Part shown: one piece after another, positions 1 to 60,163 of the stretch
How positions within the stretch are numbered: position 1 is the stretch's first letter
Layout: every line of letters begins with the position of its first letter
From: Candidatus Sabulitectum sp.
GTDB taxonomy: Bacteria; Fermentibacterota; Fermentibacteria; Fermentibacterales; JCC-6
DNA length: 60,497 bases
Assembly (NCBI GenBank): GCA_023139045.1
Contig: JAGLOJ010000027.1
Location: 1 to 60,497, forward strand
Direction: 5' to 3'
Program-made: the position numbers and the translations under genes
The notes under the pieces: generated by a model
What the model was told of the DNA's origin: nothing
Seen by the model: only the letters and a program-made list of their open reading frames with translations
Databases searched by the model: none

Positions 1-5
1 GTTTT

Positions 6-150
6 CATTAACGGGGCTGAATCGCCTTGGGGAAGTACGCCTCCCCTGCGGCCTACAGTGTTCTCTGTGTACGCTTCACCCATTTTGTTCACCGGCGCGT
101 ACACCGGTTCCGCCACAGGCGCAACACTCGATACGGGCTGCTGGTTAGGC
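6..150 (-). repeat. Possible second attC-like integron recombination site
   Basis: Read on the minus strand, a perfect R''-type core GCCTAAC (150 to 144) is followed about 130 bases later by GTTAATG (12 to 6), a partial R' match. The R' side shares TAAC-N(3-4)-CTGAAT with the attC at 222-303, as expected for sites of one array. Internal hairpins occur at about 34-53 (GGGGA/TCCCC) and 67-104 (GTGTACGC/GCGTACAC, 8 bp perfect). The region is visibly more GC-rich than the cassette to its right. Pairing of the R''-side arm is only moderate, so this is tentative; it could instead be part of another structured element cut by the window edge. Confidence 0.3.
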
Positions 151-221
151 TTTGCCCGATAGGGACTTGCTACTCCCAATGAGTAGCTCACTCTATAAGA
201 AGCACCAAGCTGAGCTTGGCG

Positions 222-1225: not shown

Positions 1226-2080
1226 TCACTGACCATCTAGTTTGTTTTGGCTCAACAATGTTCTTCTCGTTCCGTTGAACTTGTTAGCAAAATCAAGAAA
1301 CGGCTGCTTAAGTGGCGACTTTGGAGCTTGTCTGAAAAGCGTCTCATAGGAAACCCAATTAAGGTGTAGACTGCTAAGCCTCTCGTTGATATCTGGGAAT
1401 GGCCTCCTAAAAGGCAGACATGATGTTGCCAAGTCTCTTACTAAATGTTTTGCCCCAGATTCTACATTTCTATACTCGGCATACTTATACTGATAGAAGC
1501 GTGAATTAGTCGGGGATGACTCAAATACTTCCGGTGTAATAAGCGTAACGTGTACGGTTTTTGGGAACCAATCACCTCTATTGAAATACAAGGCGTTTTC
1601 AATAACCCGGGCTAATTGGTTTCTCTGTCTGTCATGAGAAACATAGCCAGCTATGTCCGAGTACCATTTACATTCAACAAAACAGATCCAGCTGTTCTCA
1701 TTTCTTTCGAGTTTGATTCCGCTCTGCGTTCCACTCCTTTGAGAGATGGTACCAAATGCTAAATCGAGATGTGTGCTTCCCTCTCTCAATCTTAGGGGTA
1801 GGGGAAGCACCTCAAACCACGCTTTTGTAGGACTTGGTAGCTTGGTTTTTATAAGAGCTTGAGCTAGCGCATTTATGCCGTCCATGCCTTGTATTGCATA
1901 AATACACACGACGAGAAATGTCCAAACCTGTTCATCGGCGAAGTCTTCATGGCTGGATTCTTCTTGTGCTTCAATCCGGTTTAGTAAGCTATCCCAGTTT
2001 GCATACCCGATGTGGAGCACTTCGTTTATCCGACTCTTGTTTTGATTTATGCTATCTGCAAGCACTGTGATGTCGTACAT
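1226..2080 (-). CDS. PD-(D/E)XK nuclease-superfamily cassette protein
   Basis: 284 residues. The central part carries the PD-(D/E)XK layout: HLDLAFG (Asp106), then WICFVECKW giving E136-x-K138, then a helix with Q155 (DRQRNQLARVI). Restriction-type and repair nucleases share this core, with D, E and K binding metal. Flanking regions match nothing I recognise, so the substrate is unknown; a stand-alone restriction or defence nuclease is possible but there is no methyltransferase partner. AAGGAG abuts the ATG with no spacer, so initiation may be inefficient or at a later codon. It is probably the main gene of the first integron cassette, transcribed away from intI. Confidence 0.6.
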   Translation of the reverse strand: MYDITVLADSINQNKSRINEVLHIGYANWDSLLNRIEAQEESSHEDFADEQVWTFLVVCIYAIQGMDGINALAQALIKTKLPSPTKAWFEVLPLPLRLREGSTHLDLAFGTISQRSGTQSGIKLERNENSWICFVECKWYSDIAGYVSHDRQRNQLARVIENALYFNRGDWFPKTVHVTLITPEVFESSPTNSRFYQYKYAEYRNVESGAKHLVRDLATSCLPFRRPFPDINERLSSLHLNWVSYETLFRQAPKSPLKQPFLDFANKFNGTRRTLLSQNKLDGQ

Positions 2081-2451
2081 CTCCTTAACAATGATTACTA
2101 TTATCTCAGTTAGTCGCTAAGGGATGATAACAGCTCTTCAGGCCTCTCACAATAGAGCTTATGCCCTTTTCTGTTTTGCCTTTAACTACTTACGAAATAT
2201 GCTGAGCGTACGCAGTTTCATCCGAACATTTGTCTGGATTTATCTTGAATAACTGAATCAGTAGGCTCGATGCGGAATGACTACTTAACTACTGTTTATA
2301 TGGTTTCCAGATATGCCCGTTTTCTAGTCTAATGCCGTATAACATTCCATCACCCCTCCATAGTAATTGTATATAACTCAATGACATAGCACCACTATTA
2401 GTGATAGCTGGTATCTTATCAGTTTTCCGCATAATATGCGCGGTCTGTTCG
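2081..2451. other. Spacer between intI and first cassette gene; presumed attI region
   Basis: 371 AT-rich bases with no gene. They contain repeat copy B (2123-2260) and the 7-base core GTTAAGT on the minus strand (2289 to 2283), identical to the outer core of the attC at 297-303. The pair tttaactacttacg and gactacttaactactg gives short direct repeats here. If cassettes insert downstream of intI's 3' end, attI should lie in this interval, with 2283-2289 the best core candidate. This is inference from one core match. Confidence 0.35.
2123..2260 (+). repeat. Diverged direct repeat, copy B
   Basis: Counterpart of 341-470. It holds gatgataaca at 2123, tcacaat at the same relative offset, and gagcgtacgcagt from 2204. 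Similarity continues weakly to about 2260. It lies directly upstream of the nuclease-like gene and in the presumed attI region. Confidence 0.5.
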
Positions 2452-3483
2452 TCACAAACTATCCAGTGGGTTTTTTACACCCCTGCCGCCCCTGTTCAGT
2501 ACATGGGTGTAGATCATAGTGGTTCTTACATCTTTGTGACCAAGCAATTCCTGTACTGTACGAATGTCATAACCATTATCAAGCAGGTGAGTAGCAAAAG
2601 AATGGCGCAGCGTGTGGCATGTTGCATGTCTGGTAAAACCGGATCTGCAAACAGCTCGTTTGAAGGCCTTTTGCATTATGGATTGATCCATATGATGCCG
2701 TCCTTCTTCGTCGGTCTTCTGGTTCTTCCAGCGGCTTTTCTGCGGGAAAACCCACTGCCAGCGCCACTCCTCCGGGGCGTTGGTGTATTTGCGCTCGAGA
2801 GCATCGGGCAATAACACACGACCCCAGCCATCGACCAGGTCCTTTCTATGGATGGCTCTGACACTCTTGAGGTGTTCCTGGATGGATTTCCTGAGTGATT
2901 CAGGTAGCATAGAGACACGATCTTTGGCTCCTTTACCGTCACGGATATGTATCTCGTTGCGTGAAAAGTCTATATCCTGTACTCGGAGACTCATGCATTC
3001 AGTCAGGCGCACCCCTGTACCATACATAAGAGAGGCAATAAGCCACTTATCACCGACTAAATGCGTCAGTACAGATTTCACTTCCTCACGCGTCATTACA
3101 ACGGGCAAACGCTTTGGTTTGCGCGCACGAATAATTCCATCAAGATCACCGACTTCGCGGCCAATGACATTTCGGTAAAGGAAGAGCAGGGCGGCAAGAG
3201 CCTGGTTCTGGGTCGAAGCACTGACATTCTCTTTAACTGCTAAATGCGTCAGAAAAGCATTTATTTCCGGCTCAGACATATCTCTGGGATGGCGAATATT
3301 ATGGAAGTAGATAAATCGTTTTACCCAATTGCAATACGACCGCTCTGTGCGAGGACTGTAATGGCGTGAGCGTAGAGAATCATGCATTTGATCAAGAAGT
3401 CTGGGTTTGTTGAGATTTATTTGAGTGGCAACCGGTCTTCCGTGGTTGTTTTTATGGGGAACATGATTTGCCATCGATCGCAT
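2452..3483 (-). CDS. intI: Integron integrase (tyrosine recombinase)
   Basis: 343 residues. The N-terminal core-binding domain (about 25-110) includes SPRTERSYCNWVKRFI. The catalytic domain has R159 (TGVRLTE), H290 and R293 (HTLRHSFATHLL), H316 (LLGHKDVRTT) and Tyr325 (MIYTHV). The insertion at about 226-247 (LERKYTNAPEEWRWQWVFP) is specific to integron integrases and absent from XerC/D. The enzyme recombines attI with folded single-stranded attC. GAGGAG lies 10 bases before the ATG; a second ATG is 3 codons on. A candidate -10 (TATGAT) lies upstream around 3535. Unlike classical integrons, the cassette side faces the gene's 3' end. Confidence 0.95.
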   Translation of the reverse strand: MRSMANHVPHKNNHGRPVATQINLNKPRLLDQMHDSLRSRHYSPRTERSYCNWVKRFIYFHNIRHPRDMSEPEINAFLTHLAVKENVSASTQNQALAALLFLYRNVIGREVGDLDGIIRARKPKRLPVVMTREEVKSVLTHLVGDKWLIASLMYGTGVRLTECMSLRVQDIDFSRNEIHIRDGKGAKDRVSMLPESLRKSIQEHLKSVRAIHRKDLVDGWGRVLLPDALERKYTNAPEEWRWQWVFPQKSRWKNQKTDEEGRHHMDQSIMQKAFKRAVCRSGFTRHATCHTLRHSFATHLLDNGYDIRTVQELLGHKDVRTTMIYTHVLNRGGRGVKNPLDSL

Positions 3484-3863
3484 GCTTCATCCGCTCCTCA
3501 CAGCAGTAAGGCCAAAACAATGTTATCATATTGCCGTGGTGATCCGGCTGGTTCTGTTGCCGGAATGCTGTATTCCATTCTTTGTCACATTGTCATATGA
3601 TATTTTAATAACAACAAGTGATCATATGCTTGTGCAATGATGCAGTCAACCCGCCTAAATAGATTCTTCGACAGTGTTTCTGCTCGGAAACGGACTTATC
3701 AACAGTATTTCAAGAATTAATATCCGGCAACTTCAGAATCAGAATAGGAGATGTTCAACTCGATCAGTCGCAATGGTATTAGGTGACTTGAGTATCATGT
3801 TGACGGAGATGGATTCCTTCTGCTTTATCAGATCCTGTTTCAATACATGCTTCCGCGGTGTAT
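3484..3863. other. Intergenic region upstream of intI
   Basis: 380 bases separating the integron from the envelope operon. On the minus strand it should hold the intI promoter; TATGAT near 3530-3540 is a plausible -10, but the -35 is poor. A small hairpin GTTTC/GAAAC lies at 3676-3691. I found no LexA box, no RNA gene and no convincing terminator for the glycosyltransferase gene that ends at 3864. Confidence 0.4.
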
Positions 3864-51742: not shown

Positions 51743-53506
51743 TCAGCCTCCAGTTTTCCAGTCGTTCTCGTCAAGCAGGATTTCCGGATATTTTCCAATC
51801 ACATAAGAGTGAACAAGGGCTCTGACCCTTAAACCGGTCTCAATTGAGAGAGATTTCTCTGCCATTTCCCGAGCTGCATGTGTAGTAACCACTGCGATCA
51901 TTTTCTTCACGTCCGGAATCAGAGACGGAGCCACACTCAGTTCATCAACTCCAAATCCGATCAGAAGTGGAACTGCAAGAGGATTACCGGCCATGGATCC
52001 GCAGACCCCGACCCATTTCCCTCTGGAATGAGAAAGCCTTACAACTGTATCTATCTGCCTCAAAACTGCCGGATGGAAAGAGTCGTACAAATCGGCTACT
52101 TTCGGATTTCCCCGGTCAACAGCCAGAGTGTACTGAGTAAGATCGTTTGTGCCAATTGAAACAAAATCCACATAGGGCAACATCAGGTCGAGGGTAATAA
52201 CAGTTGCCGGAGTCTCCACCATAATTCCAACCTGCATTTTTTCATCAAAGGGGATATTCCGGGCAGTCAGGTCGTTCTTGACCAATTTCAGTAAATCTCT
52301 AAGTCTGCGAAGCTGTTCAACATGGGTTACCATCGGGAACATCATCCGGATGTTCCCATGCACAGAAGCTCTCAGAATTGCTCGAAGCTGAATGGAGAAC
52401 TCCGCAGGTCTGTCCAGTCCAATCCTTATAGCCCTGTATCCCAGGAAAGGATTGGCTTCCTTGCCGGAGTCCAGTCCGGTTCTAAACTTGTCTCCACCCA
52501 TATCGTAGGTTCTAATTATCACCGGCTTCGGCAGCATCTCAAATGCTACTTTGTTGTATATGTCGAAGTGATCTTCCTCACTCTCGCCCTTTTCCTGGAT
52601 AAGACGGAGGAATTCAGTTCTGAACAGACCAATTCCATCCGCTTCAAGTTTTTTTACAAGCTCAACCTCGTGAGGAAGCTCAATATTAGCCGCAAGTTCA
52701 AATCTGACACCATCTTCAGTGAGTGCAGGTCCGGGATTCATCCGCTGAAGAAGACTCTCGGCTTCCTGAAATCTACTCCTGATATCACGGTAATATTTGA
52801 GTTCTTCTTTTGTGGGATTTACTATCACATGGCCGTGTATACCATCCACTATGAGAGTATCGCGAGGGTTTATTTCTGAAGTAATCGCTTGAAGCCCAAC
52901 CACGGCAGGAATACCAAGAGCCCGGGCAAGAATGGTAGTATGAGAAGTTCTGCCACCCATATCAGTAACGAAAGCGAGAACCTGACCCGGCTTCAACCCG
53001 GCGGTTTCAGATGGATCAAGATCTTTCGCCACAAGAACAGCAGGCTGCTCAAGATTCTTCAATGCCTCTTTCTCAGTGCCTGTGAGCTTCTCAATAACCC
53101 TCCGGCCAACGTCTTTTACATCCGCGACTCTTTCGCGAATGTAGGGATCAGCCATCACATTAAATTTCTCCATCACACCGTGCAGAGTGGTGCTTACTGC
53201 GTATTCCGCATTAACCATTCCGCTGAGGATGCTGTGCTTTACCTCTTTGATTATTGTGGGGTCCTGAAGAAGAAGCAGAAGGAATTCAAGAATCTGCCTG
53301 CCTTCAACTACATCTCCCATTGAATCTGCAATGTTCTCAAGATCATGTTTAACTGCAGAAATCGCATCCTGGAATCTTTTAATTTCCTGCCTGGCCTCCG
53401 CAGGAGATTCCAGCGATCTTCTGGCATGCCTGAGTTCTTCCACTTTCAGAAGAAAAGCAGGTCCGATGGCTATGCCGTGTGAAGCCGGAATACCTTTAAA
53501 CAACAT
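51743..53506 (-). CDS. ptsI: Phosphoenolpyruvate-protein phosphotransferase (enzyme I)
   Basis: 587 residues. It takes phosphate from PEP and passes it to HPr. His189 lies in GGRTSHTTILARALGIPAVVG, the PEP domain has RTEFL, GGDKFRTGL, MFPMVTHVEQLR, SIGTNDLTQY and CGSMAGNP. It is full length. The start overlaps the ptsH stop (TGATG). No EII genes are nearby, pointing to a regulatory PTS. Confidence 0.97.
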   Translation of the reverse strand: MLFKGIPASHGIAIGPAFLLKVEELRHARRSLESPAEARQEIKRFQDAISAVKHDLENIADSMGDVVEGRQILEFLLLLLQDPTIIKEVKHSILSGMVNAEYAVSTTLHGVMEKFNVMADPYIRERVADVKDVGRRVIEKLTGTEKEALKNLEQPAVLVAKDLDPSETAGLKPGQVLAFVTDMGGRTSHTTILARALGIPAVVGLQAITSEINPRDTLIVDGIHGHVIVNPTKEELKYYRDIRSRFQEAESLLQRMNPGPALTEDGVRFELAANIELPHEVELVKKLEADGIGLFRTEFLRLIQEKGESEEDHFDIYNKVAFEMLPKPVIIRTYDMGGDKFRTGLDSGKEANPFLGYRAIRIGLDRPAEFSIQLRAILRASVHGNIRMMFPMVTHVEQLRRLRDLLKLVKNDLTARNIPFDEKMQVGIMVETPATVITLDLMLPYVDFVSIGTNDLTQYTLAVDRGNPKVADLYDSFHPAVLRQIDTVVRLSHSRGKWVGVCGSMAGNPLAVPLLIGFGVDELSVAPSLIPDVKKMIAVVTTHAAREMAEKSLSIETGLRVRALVHSYVIGKYPEILLDENDWKTGG

Positions 53507-53778
53507 CAGATCATCTCTTCCCCGAAGCCGCTTTTAATAACCTCCACCACAGCTTCTACCGCTTCAATCTCTTCCGGACCGTCAGCGGACACAGTGATTG
53601 CGGTTCCCCCTGAAGCTGCAAGTGTCATAACACCCATTATGCTTTTAGCGTTAACTTTGTCAGTAGGGCTTTCCACCCAGACATCACAATCAAATTCAAC
53701 AGCAGACCGTACAATCAATGCTGCAGGACGAGCATGAATGCCCAGCTTATTGGGAACAGTTACTATCTTCTCCATCAT
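53506..53778 (-). CDS. ptsH: Phosphocarrier protein HPr
   Basis: 90 residues. His15 lies in NKLGIHARPAALI and the regulatory Ser46 in NAKSIMGVM, so both EI-dependent His and HprK-dependent Ser phosphorylation are possible. GAGGG lies 7 bases before the ATG. It overlaps hprK by 32 bases. Confidence 0.96.
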   Translation of the reverse strand: MMEKIVTVPNKLGIHARPAALIVRSAVEFDCDVWVESPTDKVNAKSIMGVMTLAASGGTAITVSADGPEEIEAVEAVVEVIKSGFGEEMI

Positions 53779-54748
53779 ATTTGTCCCTCAGTCTTTTTCT
53801 GCCCATGCGGGCTATAAGCTTTCTATTCAACCGCTCAGCAGACGTACACCCGGTGTCCTTTGCCTGAATATTCATCATGGCGGCAACTTCAAGAAGGAGA
53901 GTAATGTTTCTTCCGGGAAGAACCGGTATCTCCAGCATTGGAACATCAACTCCCATAATAGTCATAAATTTTTCTTCCAGCCCTGACCGGTTGGCTTCAT
54001 CAACAAGACCGGCGTCAAGAAGCCTCACTACAAGGTCAACCGATTGCGTTTCCTTTGTTGCGCCAACGCCAAACAGTTCAGCGATACTAACAAATCCAAT
54101 TCCTCTGATCTCCATATGGAATCCAATCAACGCATCACCTGTACCGATCAGACGATTAACTGCTTTTCTTACCCTGACCAGATCATCAGCAACCAGCCTG
54201 TGTCCTCTTTCCACAAGACCAAGAACTGCCTCACTTTTCCCGATGGCACTTCTTCCCATAACGAGAAGACCCTCGCCGTAAACATCAACAAGTGTTCCAT
54301 GAAGCGAAACATGGGGAGCAAACACTTCCCCAAGAAAATCCGTTAAATCGTGTATTAACGGTGTAGTGTCCTGCGGGGAAAGAAACAGCGCCGTTTCTTT
54401 CTCTCGAGCTGCGGAAACCAGCTCATCCGGTGGCAAAAGCCCCTTCGTTACAATGCTGCACACAACAGGAAAACCGAATACATTAGCAAGAGCATCTGCC
54501 CTCTCCTGCTGAGACAGTTGATTCAGAAGAGTGATTTCTGTTTCTCCAAAGATCTGTATCCTGTCATACATGAACTTGTACGTGTATCCGGAAAGGCAGA
54601 GCCCCGGACGGCTGATATCCGGGGACACAACCGCATGGTTGTGCCCCCGTGTATCGCTTAAGTCTTCAAGTGATAACCTTTTTCCAAGGCACTCATACAT
54701 GACGCCAACAGAAAAAGTCTCCGGATCCGGAAAGCGGTCCTGCACCAT
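53747..54748 (-). CDS. hprK: HPr kinase/phosphorylase
   Basis: 333 residues. The N-terminal domain ends near residue 135; the kinase domain has the P-loop MGRSAIGKSEAVLGL, LVADDLVRVRK and the HprK signature IRGIGFVSIAELFG. The P-loop reads GRSAIGKS rather than GESGVGKS, a mild deviation. It adds or removes phosphate on HPr Ser46, its neighbour. Starts directly after the hpf stop. Confidence 0.96.
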   Translation of the reverse strand: MVQDRFPDPETFSVGVMYECLGKRLSLEDLSDTRGHNHAVVSPDISRPGLCLSGYTYKFMYDRIQIFGETEITLLNQLSQQERADALANVFGFPVVCSIVTKGLLPPDELVSAAREKETALFLSPQDTTPLIHDLTDFLGEVFAPHVSLHGTLVDVYGEGLLVMGRSAIGKSEAVLGLVERGHRLVADDLVRVRKAVNRLIGTGDALIGFHMEIRGIGFVSIAELFGVGATKETQSVDLVVRLLDAGLVDEANRSGLEEKFMTIMGVDVPMLEIPVLPGRNITLLLEVAAMMNIQAKDTGCTSAERLNRKLIARMGRKRLRDKYDGEDSNCSQ

Positions 54749-55297
54749 CTATCCCTTGCGGGCAAGCTCAACCACCTGAGTGGCGCCACTGGATGTTCTG
54801 TAAGCAGCACTGAAGCTGTCGGTCTCGGTGTTGAAAAAGATCAGGTTGTCATCAGCACCGCTGACTTCAAATTCTGTCATTGCATCATTTGTGGAATATC
54901 TCTTTAACTCTGCGGCATCCTCAAGAAGAACTGGAATACTGAGTTCTGAAGGCTCGGCAGCAACGTACCAGGCGCCCGAGATAAGTTTTTTGCCATTATT
55001 TTCTCTATGCGGATGATTGTGATGAGTTTCCTTGAATTTTTTTAGTTGTCTCTCGAGAGAAGAAACACAATCGTCGAAGGAAAAATACATATCATGTCCT
55101 TTGGACCTGGAGTCAAGTCTGAGCCTGTCTCCGCGTAACTGGACATGTGATCTGCTCAATCCTGAAGAAAGCTCAAGAATAACAAGCACATCATCGATTC
55201 CATCGTAGAATTTGTCGAGAACGGACAATTTCTCATCGACATGCTCCTTCAGGGAATCAGTAAGTTCAAAGTGCCTCGCGCTGATCTCGATGTTCAT
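54749..55297 (-). CDS. hpf: Ribosome hibernation-promoting factor (long form)
   Basis: 182 residues from this start. The N-terminal RaiA/HPF domain begins MNIEISARHFELTDSLKEHV with RLDSRSKGHDMYFSFDDCVSSLERQLKKFK; a linker and then a C-terminal domain (ELSIPVLLEDAAELKRYSTNDAM) define the long form that pairs 70S into 100S ribosomes. ATG at 55297 has AAAGGAG 5 bases upstream. It is the first gene of the PTS operon, behind promoter 55401-55429. Confidence 0.94.
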   Translation of the reverse strand: MNIEISARHFELTDSLKEHVDEKLSVLDKFYDGIDDVLVILELSSGLSRSHVQLRGDRLRLDSRSKGHDMYFSFDDCVSSLERQLKKFKETHHNHPHRENNGKKLISGAWYVAAEPSELSIPVLLEDAAELKRYSTNDAMTEFEVSGADDNLIFFNTETDSFSAAYRTSSGATQVVELARKG

Positions 55298-55336
55298 TGT
55301 AACTCCTTTCATGTTAAATGGAAGCGAAAATAAACG

Positions 55337-55429: not shown

Positions 55430-55517
55430 TACCTATCCCGGTTTACCCGGAGTGTTCCAATCGTTATTTTCGACGCAACAATTATTCAATCAGCATATTG
55501 TAATGAAAGGAAAAACT

Positions 55518-57209
55518 TTGCAGGATTACACTGAACTGCGCGAACTGGGCTTCAGGGGGGGGCTGGAAACCCATCAGCAGCTTGCCACTGCCGGGAAGTT
55601 GTTCTGCCGGTGTGCCACAAGAATCAGAAATGATGAACACCATCAGGAGATTCTCCGTCACATGCGTCCCACGCTGAGTGAGTTCGGAGAATATGATGGA
55701 ACAGCTCTCATGGAATTCAAAACAAAGAAACAGGTGCACTACCTTCTTTATAATGACTCTGTATGTACTTATGAAATGGATGATACACCTCCATTCCATG
55801 CCAATCCTGAAGCGATAAACTCTGCTCTCCAGCTGGCAATGATGTTCAACATGTCTCTGGTTGATGAGTTGCATATCACACGCAAGCAGTATCTGGACGG
55901 CTCCATTCCAACCGGTTTTCAGAGAACAGCGATTGTCGGCGTTAACGGAATGATTCCTTTCCTGGGCAGAGAGCTTCATTTCATACAGATGAGTATGGAA
56001 GAAGACGCCTGCCGGGAAGTATCTGACATCGGTCACCATGTGATCTTTCGTACCGATCGTCTTTCAATCCCCCTGGTGGAGCCGGTGACTGCCCCTGAAC
56101 TACGCACTCCTCTTGAAATGGCAATCGCCGCAAAACTCATCGGTGAAACAATGCGTTCCACTCATCTGGTAAGAAGAGGAATCGGTTCGGTAAGACAGGA
56201 TGTGAATGTATCCATCAGAGGCGGCACCAGAGTTGAGATAAAAGGCGTGGCAAAAATAGGTTACATCGAGCCCCTTTCAAAAACTGAAGCTTACAGGCAG
56301 AAGGCTCTTCTTGACCTTCGCCACCAGTTGAAAACATCTGATTTAACTGCCGACCGTTTCAAGCCTGAATTCACGGTACTGAAAAAAATTCCTGCCGCAG
56401 GAGAGGGTTTTAACCCTGACAAACTTGAATCCGAAAATCACAAAGCTGCTGTGATGATTCTTCCCGGATTCAAAAAATTCATAGACTGGCCAACTCAACC
56501 TGGACTCTCGTTCCTCGACGAACTTCGCGGCAGAATCAGGGTTATTGCATGTCTTGAATACAACCCCGTACTCACTGAGGCTACAAAAGTTCTAAGAGCA
56601 AACATGAACATCTTCCCCGAGGATGCAGCTCTTGTTTTCGCCGGCCCTGAAGAAGACCTTGAAACCACGGTGAAAGAAATCTGCATCAGAATTGATGAAG
56701 CATTTCAGGGAATACCTCCGGAGACCAGACAGGCTCTTCCAGACGGAAACACAGATTTCGAGCGAATTCTTCCAGGTGCAGACAGAATGTATCCGGATAC
56801 AGATCTCCCCCCGCAACCGATTCCAGCATGTACATTCGACAAGCTGCAGAAACTTCTACCGAAAAAACCATGGGAAAGACGCGATATTTACAGAAAACTG
56901 GGGCTCAGCGATCATCTCATGGATCGTCTTCTCAACCTTGAGCTCTGTGACCTGTATGACGACCTTCTGACCAGTACAGAGCTGAAGCCCGGACCTCTGG
57001 CCAGCCTGCTTGCTGATCGCATGAGAGGATCAAGAAGAGCCGGAAAAGACTGGATGAAAGCACTTGATGTTAATGGAATACGAGACACTGTAATCTGGTG
57101 CTGCAAAAATGGTGTTACAACGAAGGGGGCATGGTTTGTTCTCGACTGGATGTCGGAAAACCCCGGTTGCACACCTGAGGAAGCATTCAAGGTGGTGAAG
57201 CCGGCCTGA
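55518..57209 (+). CDS. gatE: Archaeal-type glutamyl-tRNA(Gln) amidotransferase subunit E
   Basis: About 563 residues. GFRGGLETHQQLATAGKLFC, RPTLSEFGEYD, VDELHITRKQYLDGSIPTG and SVRQDVNVSIRGGTRVEIKG are those of GatE/GatB; AVMILPGFKKFIDWPTQPG starts the AspRS-like GAD insertion (about 290-420) that separates GatE from GatB. A YqeY-like tail closes the protein. GatE is established as the archaeal transamidation subunit working with GatD; bacteria normally use GatCAB. TTG at 55518 has AAAGGA 6 bases before it; an ATG at 55503 is the alternative. GatD is not in the window. Confidence 0.9.
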   Translation: MQDYTELRELGFRGGLETHQQLATAGKLFCRCATRIRNDEHHQEILRHMRPTLSEFGEYDGTALMEFKTKKQVHYLLYNDSVCTYEMDDTPPFHANPEAINSALQLAMMFNMSLVDELHITRKQYLDGSIPTGFQRTAIVGVNGMIPFLGRELHFIQMSMEEDACREVSDIGHHVIFRTDRLSIPLVEPVTAPELRTPLEMAIAAKLIGETMRSTHLVRRGIGSVRQDVNVSIRGGTRVEIKGVAKIGYIEPLSKTEAYRQKALLDLRHQLKTSDLTADRFKPEFTVLKKIPAAGEGFNPDKLESENHKAAVMILPGFKKFIDWPTQPGLSFLDELRGRIRVIACLEYNPVLTEATKVLRANMNIFPEDAALVFAGPEEDLETTVKEICIRIDEAFQGIPPETRQALPDGNTDFERILPGADRMYPDTDLPPQPIPACTFDKLQKLLPKKPWERRDIYRKLGLSDHLMDRLLNLELCDLYDDLLTSTELKPGPLASLLADRMRGSRRAGKDWMKALDVNGIRDTVIWCCKNGVTTKGAWFVLDWMSENPGCTPEEAFKVVKPA

Positions 57210-57224
57210 ATTGAGGGATAAAAT

Positions 57225-59768
57225 TTGAGAATTGATGTCTTCAAAGCTCTGATTGAGAATTCCACACTGCTGGTCGTGGCTTTCCTGTTCCTCGCCCGGT
57301 TTTCAAGGTGGAAGGTAAGCAGAGGATCAACCAGCAGTATGCTTATTCAGGGGTTGGTATTTGCCTTCTGCGGAATTCTTGCAATTCTCTTCAGTGTAGA
57401 GGTTCTTCCTGGTGTACTGATTGATATGCGCACGCCTATAGTGGTTGTGGCTGCCCTTACAGGTGGGCCTGTAGTGGGTACTATCACCATAGTTCCACTT
57501 CTTATTTACAGAATATTAATCGGCGGAGCAGGAATGGTTGCCGGCATCGGTATCATCCTTTCCGCGCTGCTCTTCGGGCTGCTGCTCAGGTTGGCTGAAA
57601 AATCAAGGTTCGAGGTATCCGGTATTCTTTTCCAGCTCTTTGCAGGTTTGGGATCGGCAGCAATCTACCTTGTATGGATACTGATTCTCCCAAAATCCTT
57701 TTCCATGCATGTTTACAATGCTGTATCAATCCCTCTTTGTGTCGCATCAGTTGTATCAATACTTGCGGTATTTTTCATTAGAACCAGAGAGCAGGCCCAT
57801 CAGACACTGCTTAACAGCCTTACAGAGATAAACGATCTCTATGAAGAGATATCCCTGGATGAAAACATCGGCATTGTTATCTTGCAGAGCAATCAGATCG
57901 TGTATGTCAACCAGTCACTTCTGGCTAAATACGGGTTTTCTCGATTTGATGAGAAAAACAGTGACCTGCTCCAGATTGTCGATGCGGATACCCGTATCAG
58001 GGTAGAGAATTTCCTCAACCAGACATTTTCAACTTCCCCCGGGGAATCTGTTCCAATGAAAATCTCTCTCAAGAACAGACCCTCTCTGCATTTTCTGGTG
58101 CACGCTAGAAAACTTCTCTACAGAGGGAAGGAATCACTTCTCATTGTTTCTGTGGATATTTCAGAACTTGTAAGAACACAAAAAGCCCTTCAAAACAGAC
58201 TGGATCAGCTTCAACTGACCCTTGAAGCCTCGGGTGCTGTCAGGTGGAAAGCCTCAGTTGCAGAAGATCTACTCACAGCAAACAGGGAATTCTTCGACAT
58301 CCTGGCTTACAGTCCTCTGGAAGAGCCACCGCGTTTTTCCCACTGGCTGCTTGAATTATCTCTCTCTGATGAGATGCGGCAGAACATGGATGACATCTGT
58401 TCAGGTAGAATTAAAAGTGTTTTCGGCGAAATCTGCTACTATGGAGATGATTTTGTAACCAGATGGTTCAATATTGGTGCCATAGCCAACAGAATTGGTC
58501 CCGACGGGATACCTCTGGAGATAACCGGTATTCTTTTTGACACCACCATAATCAAGGAAAAAGAACTGTCCCTGATGCGGGAGGAGATTGAGGATATTCA
58601 ATCTCAGAAAATGGAAGCCATCGGTCGTCTTGCCGGAGGAGTTGCACACGATTTCAACAACCTGCTGCATGTAATTCTGGGCTACTGTGATATACTGAAC
58701 AGGGTTTCCGATAATGATCCTGTGATTACCGATGTTTCAATACCGATAGTGGAAGCTGCTGAAAAAGGAAGAGAACTTGTGAAACAGCTGCTTCTTTTCA
58801 GCAGGGAAAAGAAACCCCAGCTCCGAAGTGTAAATCTGAGTATGCTGACCGGCAATTTCAGCAAATTGCTTTCGAGAATCATAGAGGATAACATTGTAAT
58901 CTCTACAGAGATTCACAGTGACGACGCCTGGACATTCGGTGACCCCGGTCAGATAGAGCAGGTTCTGATGAACTTGTGTGTCAATGCCCGTGATGCCCTG
59001 CCGCACGGTGGAAAAATCAGTGTTGCGCTGGATGAAATTTCTGTTACGAAGCCTTTCAGTGTTACAAGTGGATTGCTGAAATACGGGAATTACATAACCA
59101 TCACAGTTGCCGATACCGGACCGGGCATTCCCGAATCAAAGCACAGGAGTATTTTTGAACCCTTCTTCTCAACAAAAGCACTTGACGAGGGCACAGGACT
59201 GGGCCTTGCAACTGTTCTGGGAATAGTAAGGGAACACTCCGGATACATCAATGTAACAAACAGAGTCGAAACAGGTTTTGAGATTAAGGTCTATTTCCCC
59301 AGGCTGAAAACAGATCCTCACAGCCCTGCTCCATTGGAAGAGTCAGAGACAGTGGCAGAGAATTCAACTCATTTAAAAACTCAGCCGCATCTCCGTACAG
59401 TATGCATTCTTCTGGCTGAAGATGATCCACAGGTAATGAACCTTGCGGTTGAGGGGCTCGGGGCAGCAGGAATAAAAGTTCTACGGGCAACAAATGGAAG
59501 GGAAGCGGTAGAGCTCTTTAAAAACAAAAAAGATGATATTGAAATGCTTGTCTTTGATGTTATGATGCCTGAAATGAATGGGCCGGATGCATACAGAATG
59601 ATTCTTTCCAACGGATACAACATCCCCGTGGTATTCACAACAGGTTACGCGGGAGACCGGCTCACAGGCATGGAAGAAGCGCACGAAGTGATCAGTAAAC
59701 CCTATGCAATGAACGATCTCATTGCCACAATCCGCAGAATGACTAATTCCGGGAATGGAGCAAAATGA
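57225..59768 (+). CDS. Hybrid sensor histidine kinase with 5TM-LYT sensor and receiver
   Basis: 847 residues. An N-terminal five-to-six helix domain (about 8-185) carries IDMRTPIVVVAALTGGPVVG, as in 5TMR-LYT sensors. Two PAS-like domains follow (about 210-312 and 325-445). The dimerisation domain has phospho-acceptor His475 in GGVAHDFNNLL; the ATPase has VNARDAL, DTGPGIP and GTGLGLATV; the C-terminal receiver has E732-D733-D734 and phospho-acceptor Asp778 in VFDVMMPEMNG. Start is TTG with GAGG upstream. It lacks a DNA-binding output, so signals must pass to another regulator. Confidence 0.92.
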   Translation: MRIDVFKALIENSTLLVVAFLFLARFSRWKVSRGSTSSMLIQGLVFAFCGILAILFSVEVLPGVLIDMRTPIVVVAALTGGPVVGTITIVPLLIYRILIGGAGMVAGIGIILSALLFGLLLRLAEKSRFEVSGILFQLFAGLGSAAIYLVWILILPKSFSMHVYNAVSIPLCVASVVSILAVFFIRTREQAHQTLLNSLTEINDLYEEISLDENIGIVILQSNQIVYVNQSLLAKYGFSRFDEKNSDLLQIVDADTRIRVENFLNQTFSTSPGESVPMKISLKNRPSLHFLVHARKLLYRGKESLLIVSVDISELVRTQKALQNRLDQLQLTLEASGAVRWKASVAEDLLTANREFFDILAYSPLEEPPRFSHWLLELSLSDEMRQNMDDICSGRIKSVFGEICYYGDDFVTRWFNIGAIANRIGPDGIPLEITGILFDTTIIKEKELSLMREEIEDIQSQKMEAIGRLAGGVAHDFNNLLHVILGYCDILNRVSDNDPVITDVSIPIVEAAEKGRELVKQLLLFSREKKPQLRSVNLSMLTGNFSKLLSRIIEDNIVISTEIHSDDAWTFGDPGQIEQVLMNLCVNARDALPHGGKISVALDEISVTKPFSVTSGLLKYGNYITITVADTGPGIPESKHRSIFEPFFSTKALDEGTGLGLATVLGIVREHSGYINVTNRVETGFEIKVYFPRLKTDPHSPAPLEESETVAENSTHLKTQPHLRTVCILLAEDDPQVMNLAVEGLGAAGIKVLRATNGREAVELFKNKKDDIEMLVFDVMMPEMNGPDAYRMILSNGYNIPVVFTTGYAGDRLTGMEEAHEVISKPYAMNDLIATIRRMTNSGNGAK

Positions 59769-60163
59769 CAGATGGAAAGAATATGAATGACCTCTCCCTC
59801 CTTGGAAGTTCTACAAGTGAATTTAAAGGGCTGGAAGCCTTTCCCAATCTTAATCCGGAGAGGGATTACACTGTAACACTCACAACAGATGAATTCACCT
59901 GTGTCTGCCCCAAAACCGGCCAGCCGGACTTCGCAAAAATAACAATCAGCTATGTTCCGGATTTGAAGATTGTTGAATCAAAATCCCTGAAGCTTTACTT
60001 CCTCTCCTACAGGAACAAAGGTGTTTTTCATGAACATGTAACAAACATGATTCTTGATGATCTGCTGGCAGCAATTCAACCCAGATGGTGCCGGGTACAG
60101 GCGGATTTCGGAGTTCGGGGCGGTATTGCCATCACAGTGGATGCGGAGTACAGTAAAGAGTAA
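59765..60163 (+). CDS. queF: NADPH-dependent preQ0 (7-cyano-7-deazaguanine) reductase
   Basis: 132 residues, the short unimodular QueF type. Catalytic Cys48 and Asp55 lie in CVCPKTGQPDFAKI; the QueF motif is IVESKSLKLYFLSYRN. It reduces the preQ0 nitrile to preQ1 for queuosine in tRNA. Overlaps the kinase gene by 4 bases. No other que genes are in the window. Confidence 0.95.
   Translation: MTDGKNMNDLSLLGSSTSEFKGLEAFPNLNPERDYTVTLTTDEFTCVCPKTGQPDFAKITISYVPDLKIVESKSLKLYFLSYRNKGVFHEHVTNMILDDLLAAIQPRWCRVQADFGVRGGIAITVDAEYSKE

Follow-up and report, generated by a model that had tools for sequence, protein, structure and literature searches.

The GatDE amidotransferase is described as exclusive to archaea in the accessible part of a 2022 review (PMC8762117) and as now confined to archaea in that of another (PMC9499178). 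According to the same part of the latter, archaeal tRNA-Gln carries A1-U72 and A73, and the absence of GlnRS from archaea may be due to the co-evolution of GatDE with a tRNA-Gln of a special kind. What, then, does a GatE do in a bacterium? The gene that raises this question lies in a contig of Candidatus Sabulitectum (Fermentibacterota); the window, that is the whole stretch of DNA analysed, comprises 60,497 nucleotides (Table 1). The preliminary description of this stretch had identified an archaeal-type GatE with an AspRS-like insertion and proposed gene transfer. The two oddest points were absent from it: this GatE has no tail, and it shares its genome with a GlnRS.

Table 1. Features of the window and of further stretches. 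Positions refer to the window unless a stretch is named; GatE residues are counted from an ATG at 55503, which is itself not conserved.
Feature	Stretch	Positions	Strand	Remarks
Group II intron piece (RF02005)	window	1-169	-	56.8 bits; 3' end cut by the window end
Phage-type integrase (PF00589, PF13495)	window	2452-3483	-	near the left end
PEP-utilising enzyme (PtsI-like)	window	51743..53506	-	kept neighbour wherever the locus extends that far
HPr(Ser) kinase/phosphatase	window	53747..54748	-	kept neighbour
Hibernation-promoting factor (HPF/YfiA)	window	54749..55312	-	divergent neighbour, kept in relatives
gatE-like gene	window	55518..57209	+	TTG start, 563 aa
GLETH motif, E22 and H24	window	55566..55574	+	E13 and H15 of M. 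thermautotrophicus GatE
E166-E167-D168 and E193	window	55998..56081	+	E157-E158-D159 and E184 of M. thermautotrophicus
AspRS-like (GAD-type) insertion domain	window	56343..56711	+	residues 281-403
Helical C-terminal region	window	56826..57206	+	helices from residue 442 to 565; frame stops where the YqeY-like tail of relatives continues
Stop codon and 15-base gap up to the next gene	window	57207..57224	+	too short to hold the missing tail
Hybrid histidine kinase	window	57225..59768	+	downstream neighbour within the genus
preQ1 synthase QueF	window	59765..60163	+
Adenosine-specific kinase family protein (PF04008)	L002	503-991	-	immediately downstream of gatD
695-aa protein, asparaginase/GatD-like N-terminal part	L004 (G000:C112)	58-2145
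tRNA-Gln(CUG) beside gatD	L018	5271-5342		genome of L018 is G092
tRNA-Gln(CUG) beside gatE	L072	5660-5731
Synthetase match, archaeal-labelled MAG	L248 (G093:C36:1-9000)	1834..3519
Synthetase match, archaeal-labelled MAG	L249	2858..4573

Results

The identification as a GatE with an AspRS-like insertion in a bacterium was borne out. In profile searches the protein scored above the cut-off of the GatE model TIGR00134 (382.4 bits, cut-off 319.6), below that of the GatE model NF003107 (429.8 bits, cut-off 456) and well below that of the best GatB model (109.3 bits, cut-off 338). The AspRS-like insertion is present within the cradle, and a GatD partner is encoded in the genome. The protein is predicted to have the GatE fold, AspRS-like insertion included, with the full cradle kept; in structural alignments it is 31–32% identical to archaeal GatE (2d6f, 1zq1). 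Since the YqeY-like tail is missing, we class it as a tail-less variant and not as a standard GatE.

The Mg2+/ATP-site positions H15, E157 and E184 of M. thermautotrophicus are identical in our protein (H24, E166 and E193); we take H15 to be a Mg2+ ligand and E157 and E184 to be residues of the Mg2+/ATP site. In an alignment of 131 rows, the positions equivalent to E22 and H24 are E and H in 129 rows and gaps in two, and both are also invariant in an alignment of 42 rows. The equivalents of E157, E158 and E184 are E in all 131 rows, and at that of D159 129 rows have D and two have E. Comparison of gatE with genus-mates yielded eight dN/dS estimates, six of them distinct since two were made on second copies of the same sequences. 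The sixth was saturated in dS, and the other five gave 0.033–0.072, values that are rough because dS is near saturation there as well (1.2–3.1). Judged from these ratios, gatE of this clade is under purifying selection.

The Pfam profile search found no match to PF02637, the YqeY-like tail, in the protein. The missing tail is a property of the whole clade: in the 131-row alignment all 21 rows of the clade have 0–9 residues beyond the end of our protein, and the same is true for all 15 distinct clade sequences with a stop of their own (five rows duplicate sequences present in both collections, and L105 is cut off by the end of its contig). Outside the phylum, at least 40 residues follow that point in 70 of the 73 listed loci (median over the 73, 62 residues). 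The three short ones (L029, L041, L046) run off their contigs, and the tail of about 62 residues is thus kept in all 70 listed outside loci that reach their own stop. The precomputed Pfam column of the database matches agrees with the alignment, with PF02637 in none of the best 62 matches and in 55 of the 58 that follow. Supply of the tail in trans was considered and rejected, since a stand-alone YqeY (PF09424) had no match in the 42 genomes of the phylum; this search is weak (8 of 14 controls detected), and a diverged stand-alone YqeY may escape it, as the model also missed the GatE tails of the same phylum.

The host genome (3.70 Mb in 205 contigs, 93.5% complete, 1.0% contaminated) contains a single GatB/GatE match in a profile search of its contigs, namely our protein. 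Of the partner genes that the preliminary description had proposed to look for, GatD and GlnRS are present, and GatB had no match in the genome. The GatD frame is intact on contig C175 (TIGR02153, 476 bits, cut-off 324). It has a GatD_N domain and the motifs TGGTIAS, HGTDT and RKMH, aligned to 1zq1 and 2d6f, and is 46% identical to P. abyssi GatD. GlnRS is located on C189 (TIGR00440, 738 bits), and thus the lack of GlnRS that goes with a sole indirect route to Gln-tRNA does not apply. The proposed search for a non-discriminating GltX gave one GluRS, on C204. At the residue equivalent to R358 of T. thermophilus, which we take to be a mark of a discriminating GluRS, it carries Arg. The same Arg is found in GluRS of five genomes without GlnRS over cut-off (G057, G061, G080, G082, G090; 40 GluRS fetched, of which L200 and L209 end before this position), and we rejected it as a sign of specificity because it fails to separate genomes with and without GlnRS.

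Among the 42 tRNA matches of the host genome are two tRNA-Gln genes (UUG and CUG), both with U1-A72 and G73; neither has the A1-U72 and A73 of the tRNA-Gln used by archaeal GatDE. The tRNA-Asn has G1-C72, so that the host enzyme is unlikely to act in Asn synthesis as GatCAB does. Class II synthetases (PF00152) gave three matches, LysRS, AsnRS and an archaeal-type AspRS, the latter passing NF003483 and scoring below the TIGR00458 cut-off. It is of the archaeal short type and the only AspRS among the three (L088, G000:C163); AsnRS lies elsewhere (L089). The genome also encodes a protein of 695 aa whose N-terminal part is divergent and asparaginase/GatD-like and whose long C-terminal part was covered by no NCBIfam match; it lies next to an ATPase that by eye resembles IstB.

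The named relatives of the host are Candidatus Sabulitectum and other Fermentibacterota, and all seven named Fermentibacterota loci have hpf and hprK next to gatE in divergent orientation. Other genomes of the phylum contributed 13 further loci with this kind of GatE, with hpf in 12 and hprK in 12; the ends of the short stretches may truncate the rest. The GC content is normal and even across the region. Misassembly, which the preliminary description had named as one of two cases that would undo its claim, does not agree with these shared neighbours, and a chimeric contig is very unlikely.

In the survey of the phylum, GatB was over cut-off in none of the 42 genomes. A GatE-type (weaker) match was found in 35, GatD over cut-off in 33 and GlnRS over cut-off in 37. 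GatE and GlnRS occur together in 30 of the 35 genomes with GatE; the other five lack a GlnRS over cut-off (G001, G002, G019, G024, G038), and only G001 among them is more than 90% complete. All seven genomes without a GatE match have GlnRS. One of them, G041, belongs to the same family as the host, is 95% complete and has no match to GatE or GatD, so that the pair is apparently dispensable.

Two kinds of GatE are found in the phylum, the tail-less one (genera g1 and g4, family f2) and a tailed one (genera g2, g3 and g9); in five of the 35 genomes (G002, G003, G032, G038, G040) the kind was assigned by kinship, with no locus read. The tail-less kind has gatD and gatE on different contigs in all 17 genomes with a GatE match and GatD over cut-off. 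The tailed kind is 39–51% identical to our protein and has stop-to-stop frames of 636–745 aa in 14 of 16 loci; L101 is the one short row among its 16, with a frame of 419 aa. Its gatE is followed by gatD on one contig in 15 of 16 cases, with G026 as the exception and only a gatD fragment below cut-off in G023.

A scan of named genomes revealed at least 80 GatE loci, at least 73 of them outside Fermentibacterota (71 labelled bacterial, two archaeal), in hosts including Zixibacteria, Ignavibacteria, Acidobacteria, Aminicenantes, Myxococcota, Caldisericia, KSB1 and others. In 54 of the 73 listed outside loci gatD lies within 3.5 kb of gatE, 51 times on the same strand; where it is downstream, the gap has a median of 9 bases. 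No gatD was found within 3.5 kb in 11 loci, and eight more end too close to gatE. With the gene caller used for recurring neighbours, gatD was found in 38 of the 73 listed loci, and the next family in 10. GlnRS is over cut-off in 59 of the 73 listed outside genomes (37 of 50 and 22 of 23), and three further ones contain GlnRS fragments of 307–419 bits. The GatB search covered 50 of the listed outside genomes, and 20 of these have a GatB over cut-off. Four of the 50 have neither GatB nor GlnRS (G060, G063, G079, G082; fragments counted as GlnRS, completeness not given). Because GlnRS or GatB is also encoded, GatDE is an extra and not the sole route in most outside genomes.

Two MAGs with archaeal labels, G093 (Thermoplasmatota) and G092 (Euryarchaeota), have a strong GlnRS match (730 and 685 bits), for which a binning error is possible, and a second match to the glnS model (302 and 208 bits). 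In G093 this second match is, by eye, an archaeal-type GluRS, which sits amid isoprenoid genes (also recognised by eye).

An Rfam scan of 67 outside loci together with ARAGORN over all 73 revealed four tRNA genes, two of which are tRNA-Gln(CUG) beside gatD or gatE. The one in L018 is of the archaeal type (A1-U72, A73), and the one in L072, labelled a deltaproteobacterium, has U1-A72 with A73 and not G73 as discriminator; no second tRNA-Gln was found in 20 contigs of the L072 genome, a small part of it. These two cases, noticed post hoc and located outside the clade of our protein, are only suggestive of a link between GatDE and tRNA-Gln.

In a tree with GatB as outgroup, our protein falls outside bacterial GatB, whose rows stand apart at 100/100; the preliminary description had named such a tree as a check and a place inside bacterial GatB as a refutation. 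The seven archaeal GatE rows (Methanothermobacter and Thermococcales only) are separated from a group of 60 rows with our protein, with supports of 100/98 and 96/97, respectively. The larger group contains the other bacterial GatE and four rows labelled archaeal/Thermoplasmata (L018, L025, P0068, P0087). Left out of the tree were GATB_246 (branch length 10, probably a wrong frame), P0116 (identical to L016), P0118 (zero branch length beside L014), L074 (long) and L105. The AU test did not reject a grouping of our clade with archaeal GatE (p 0.22). It rejected our clade and genus g2 as one clade (p 0.0068; groups named after the first tree), and with this a single GatE lineage for Fermentibacterota was rejected. 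The stem branch of our GatE clade has 1.3 changes per column. Its GatD forms a clade of its own in a quick GatD tree and is 60.6–66.4% identical to the GatD of 52 outside loci. Besides our protein, 61 database matches of its kind were found at 57–88% identity, followed by a drop to about 50%.

The bacterial GatE group including our protein is the best tree and is not proven, since our protein sits on a long branch and the AU test leaves room for its grouping with archaeal GatE; we claim no direction of transfer. A transfer special to this organism, as proposed in the preliminary description, is not supported: GatE of this kind is spread across many bacterial phyla, and in the best tree our protein stands with them and outside the sampled archaeal GatE, the AU test still allowing the archaeal grouping.

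Discussion

Databases already label such bacterial proteins GatE. Among the papers listed in searches of open-licence literature for GatDE, GatD and GatE, none had bacterial GatDE as the subject of its title. The bacterial occurrence is thus annotated already, and the listed papers do not discuss it in their titles, abstract starts or the passages covered.

Our protein resembles the GatE of archaeal GatDE (2d6f from M. thermautotrophicus, 1zq1 from P. abyssi) in its cradle, AspRS-like insertion, helical domain and active site, and the host GatD has the N-terminal domain and the asparaginase-like site of archaeal GatD. Unlike the archaeal enzyme, it is found in a bacterial host, has no YqeY-like tail, is co-encoded with GlnRS and meets a tRNA-Gln with U1-A72 and G73. 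The tailed bacterial GatE (Ignavibacteria, Zixibacteria, Acidobacteria, genus g2 and others) share its signature blocks and have the same kind of GatD; those outside the phylum are 45–52% identical to it, and the tailed proteins differ in keeping the tail and, often, the neighbourhood of gatE and gatD. Bacterial GatB has the same catalytic cradle and type of reaction; however, it is without the AspRS-like insertion and works with GatA and GatC. A further parallel is the GatCAB of Bdellovibrio, Deinococcus and Thermus which, according to the accessible part of PMC4206432, was retained despite the direct synthetases GlnRS and AsnRS. This enzyme serves Asn synthesis on a tRNA-Asn with U1-A72, whereas the host studied here has G1-C72 in its tRNA-Asn, and GatDE.

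How can a kept active site, a lost tail and a resident GlnRS be brought together? We tentatively favour the reading that GatDE here is used for low-flux repair of Glu-tRNA(Gln) or as a back-up and not as the main route, and would give it slightly less than an even chance; it is based on the fact that GatD and GlnRS are both encoded. The invariant active-site residues, the low dN/dS values, the joint occurrence of GatE and GlnRS inside and outside the phylum, the two tRNA-Gln neighbours and the separate GatD clade also speak for it. GatD and GatE would still pair even though their genes are unlinked in this clade, GatD would supply ammonia from glutamine, and GatE would phosphorylate and then amidate the misacylated Glu. 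The substrate would remain a tRNA-Gln, held with a weaker grip. With GlnRS in the cell, a specific amidotransferase of high flux would no longer be needed, and the loss of the tail would be tolerated because GlnRS does the bulk of the charging. Against this speak the ends of the tRNA-Gln, which are not of the archaeal type, the separation of gatD from gatE throughout the clade and the score below the NF003107 cut-off. As far as the accessible part of PMC4810234 goes, GatDE and GatCAB separate tRNA-Gln from tRNA-Glu partly via the tail domains and the D-loop, and the tail of GatDE fits the D-loop of the tRNA. Removal of the YqeY domain abolished measurable activity of yeast GatB, according to the part available of PMC4027206, and a tail-less GatE might thus be inactive on tRNA altogether.

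In the main alternative, which we regard as rather unlikely, the tail-less GatDE would have left tRNA-Gln and would amidate another carboxylate, on a different misacylated tRNA or on a non-tRNA substrate, with the GatE site being reused. This would explain why the tail was lost while active site and selection were kept, and GlnRS makes the tRNA-Gln task redundant. The lack of a YqeY match in the phylum (weak) and the long stem of the GatE clade, next to a GatD that is still close to that of outside loci, are in line with it. However, no kept neighbour hints at another substrate, since outside the phylum only gatD recurs widely near gatE and the kept neighbours of our clade are hpf, hprK and ptsI, and the GatE cradle is retained in full. 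Fermentibacterota GatDE might then be the first to be freed from its duty in translation, with GlnRS charging tRNA-Gln and the pair amidating something non-canonical, a claim we regard as equally doubtful.

It is unlikely that GatDE provides a complete alternative path to Gln-tRNA(Gln), which the cell would use, for instance, under a shortage of free glutamine, with the missing tail being a minor matter. Both routes do coexist in most GatE-bearing genomes of the phylum, and coexisting direct and indirect Asn routes are described for Bdellovibrio, Deinococcus and Thermus in the accessible part of PMC4206432, but yeast GatB had no measurable activity without its YqeY domain, and this route would require a non-discriminating GluRS, on which the sequence was silent. 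A decaying relic on its way to being lost would fit the lost tail, the unlinked gatD and the seven genomes of the phylum without GatE, including the nearly complete G041 that also has no GatD; the low, if rough, dN/dS values and the unchanged active-site residues make this improbable. That the gene came recently from an archaeon, or that the contig is chimeric, could be argued from the description of the family as archaeal only (accessible parts of PMC8762117 and PMC9499178) and from the unrejected archaeal grouping; this was rejected as the main reading and is hardly credible in view of the normal GC content, the shared neighbours in the named Fermentibacterota loci, the 61 similar matches and the best tree.

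The presence of GatDE and GlnRS in the same genomes, in many bacterial phyla and in two archaeal-labelled MAGs, indicates that a cell can contain both, and this coexistence makes the question why archaea have no GlnRS testable. In the tail-less clade nature has deleted a domain that proved essential in a cousin enzyme, and the clade thus provides a direct test of what remains of GatE function once the tRNA clamp is gone.
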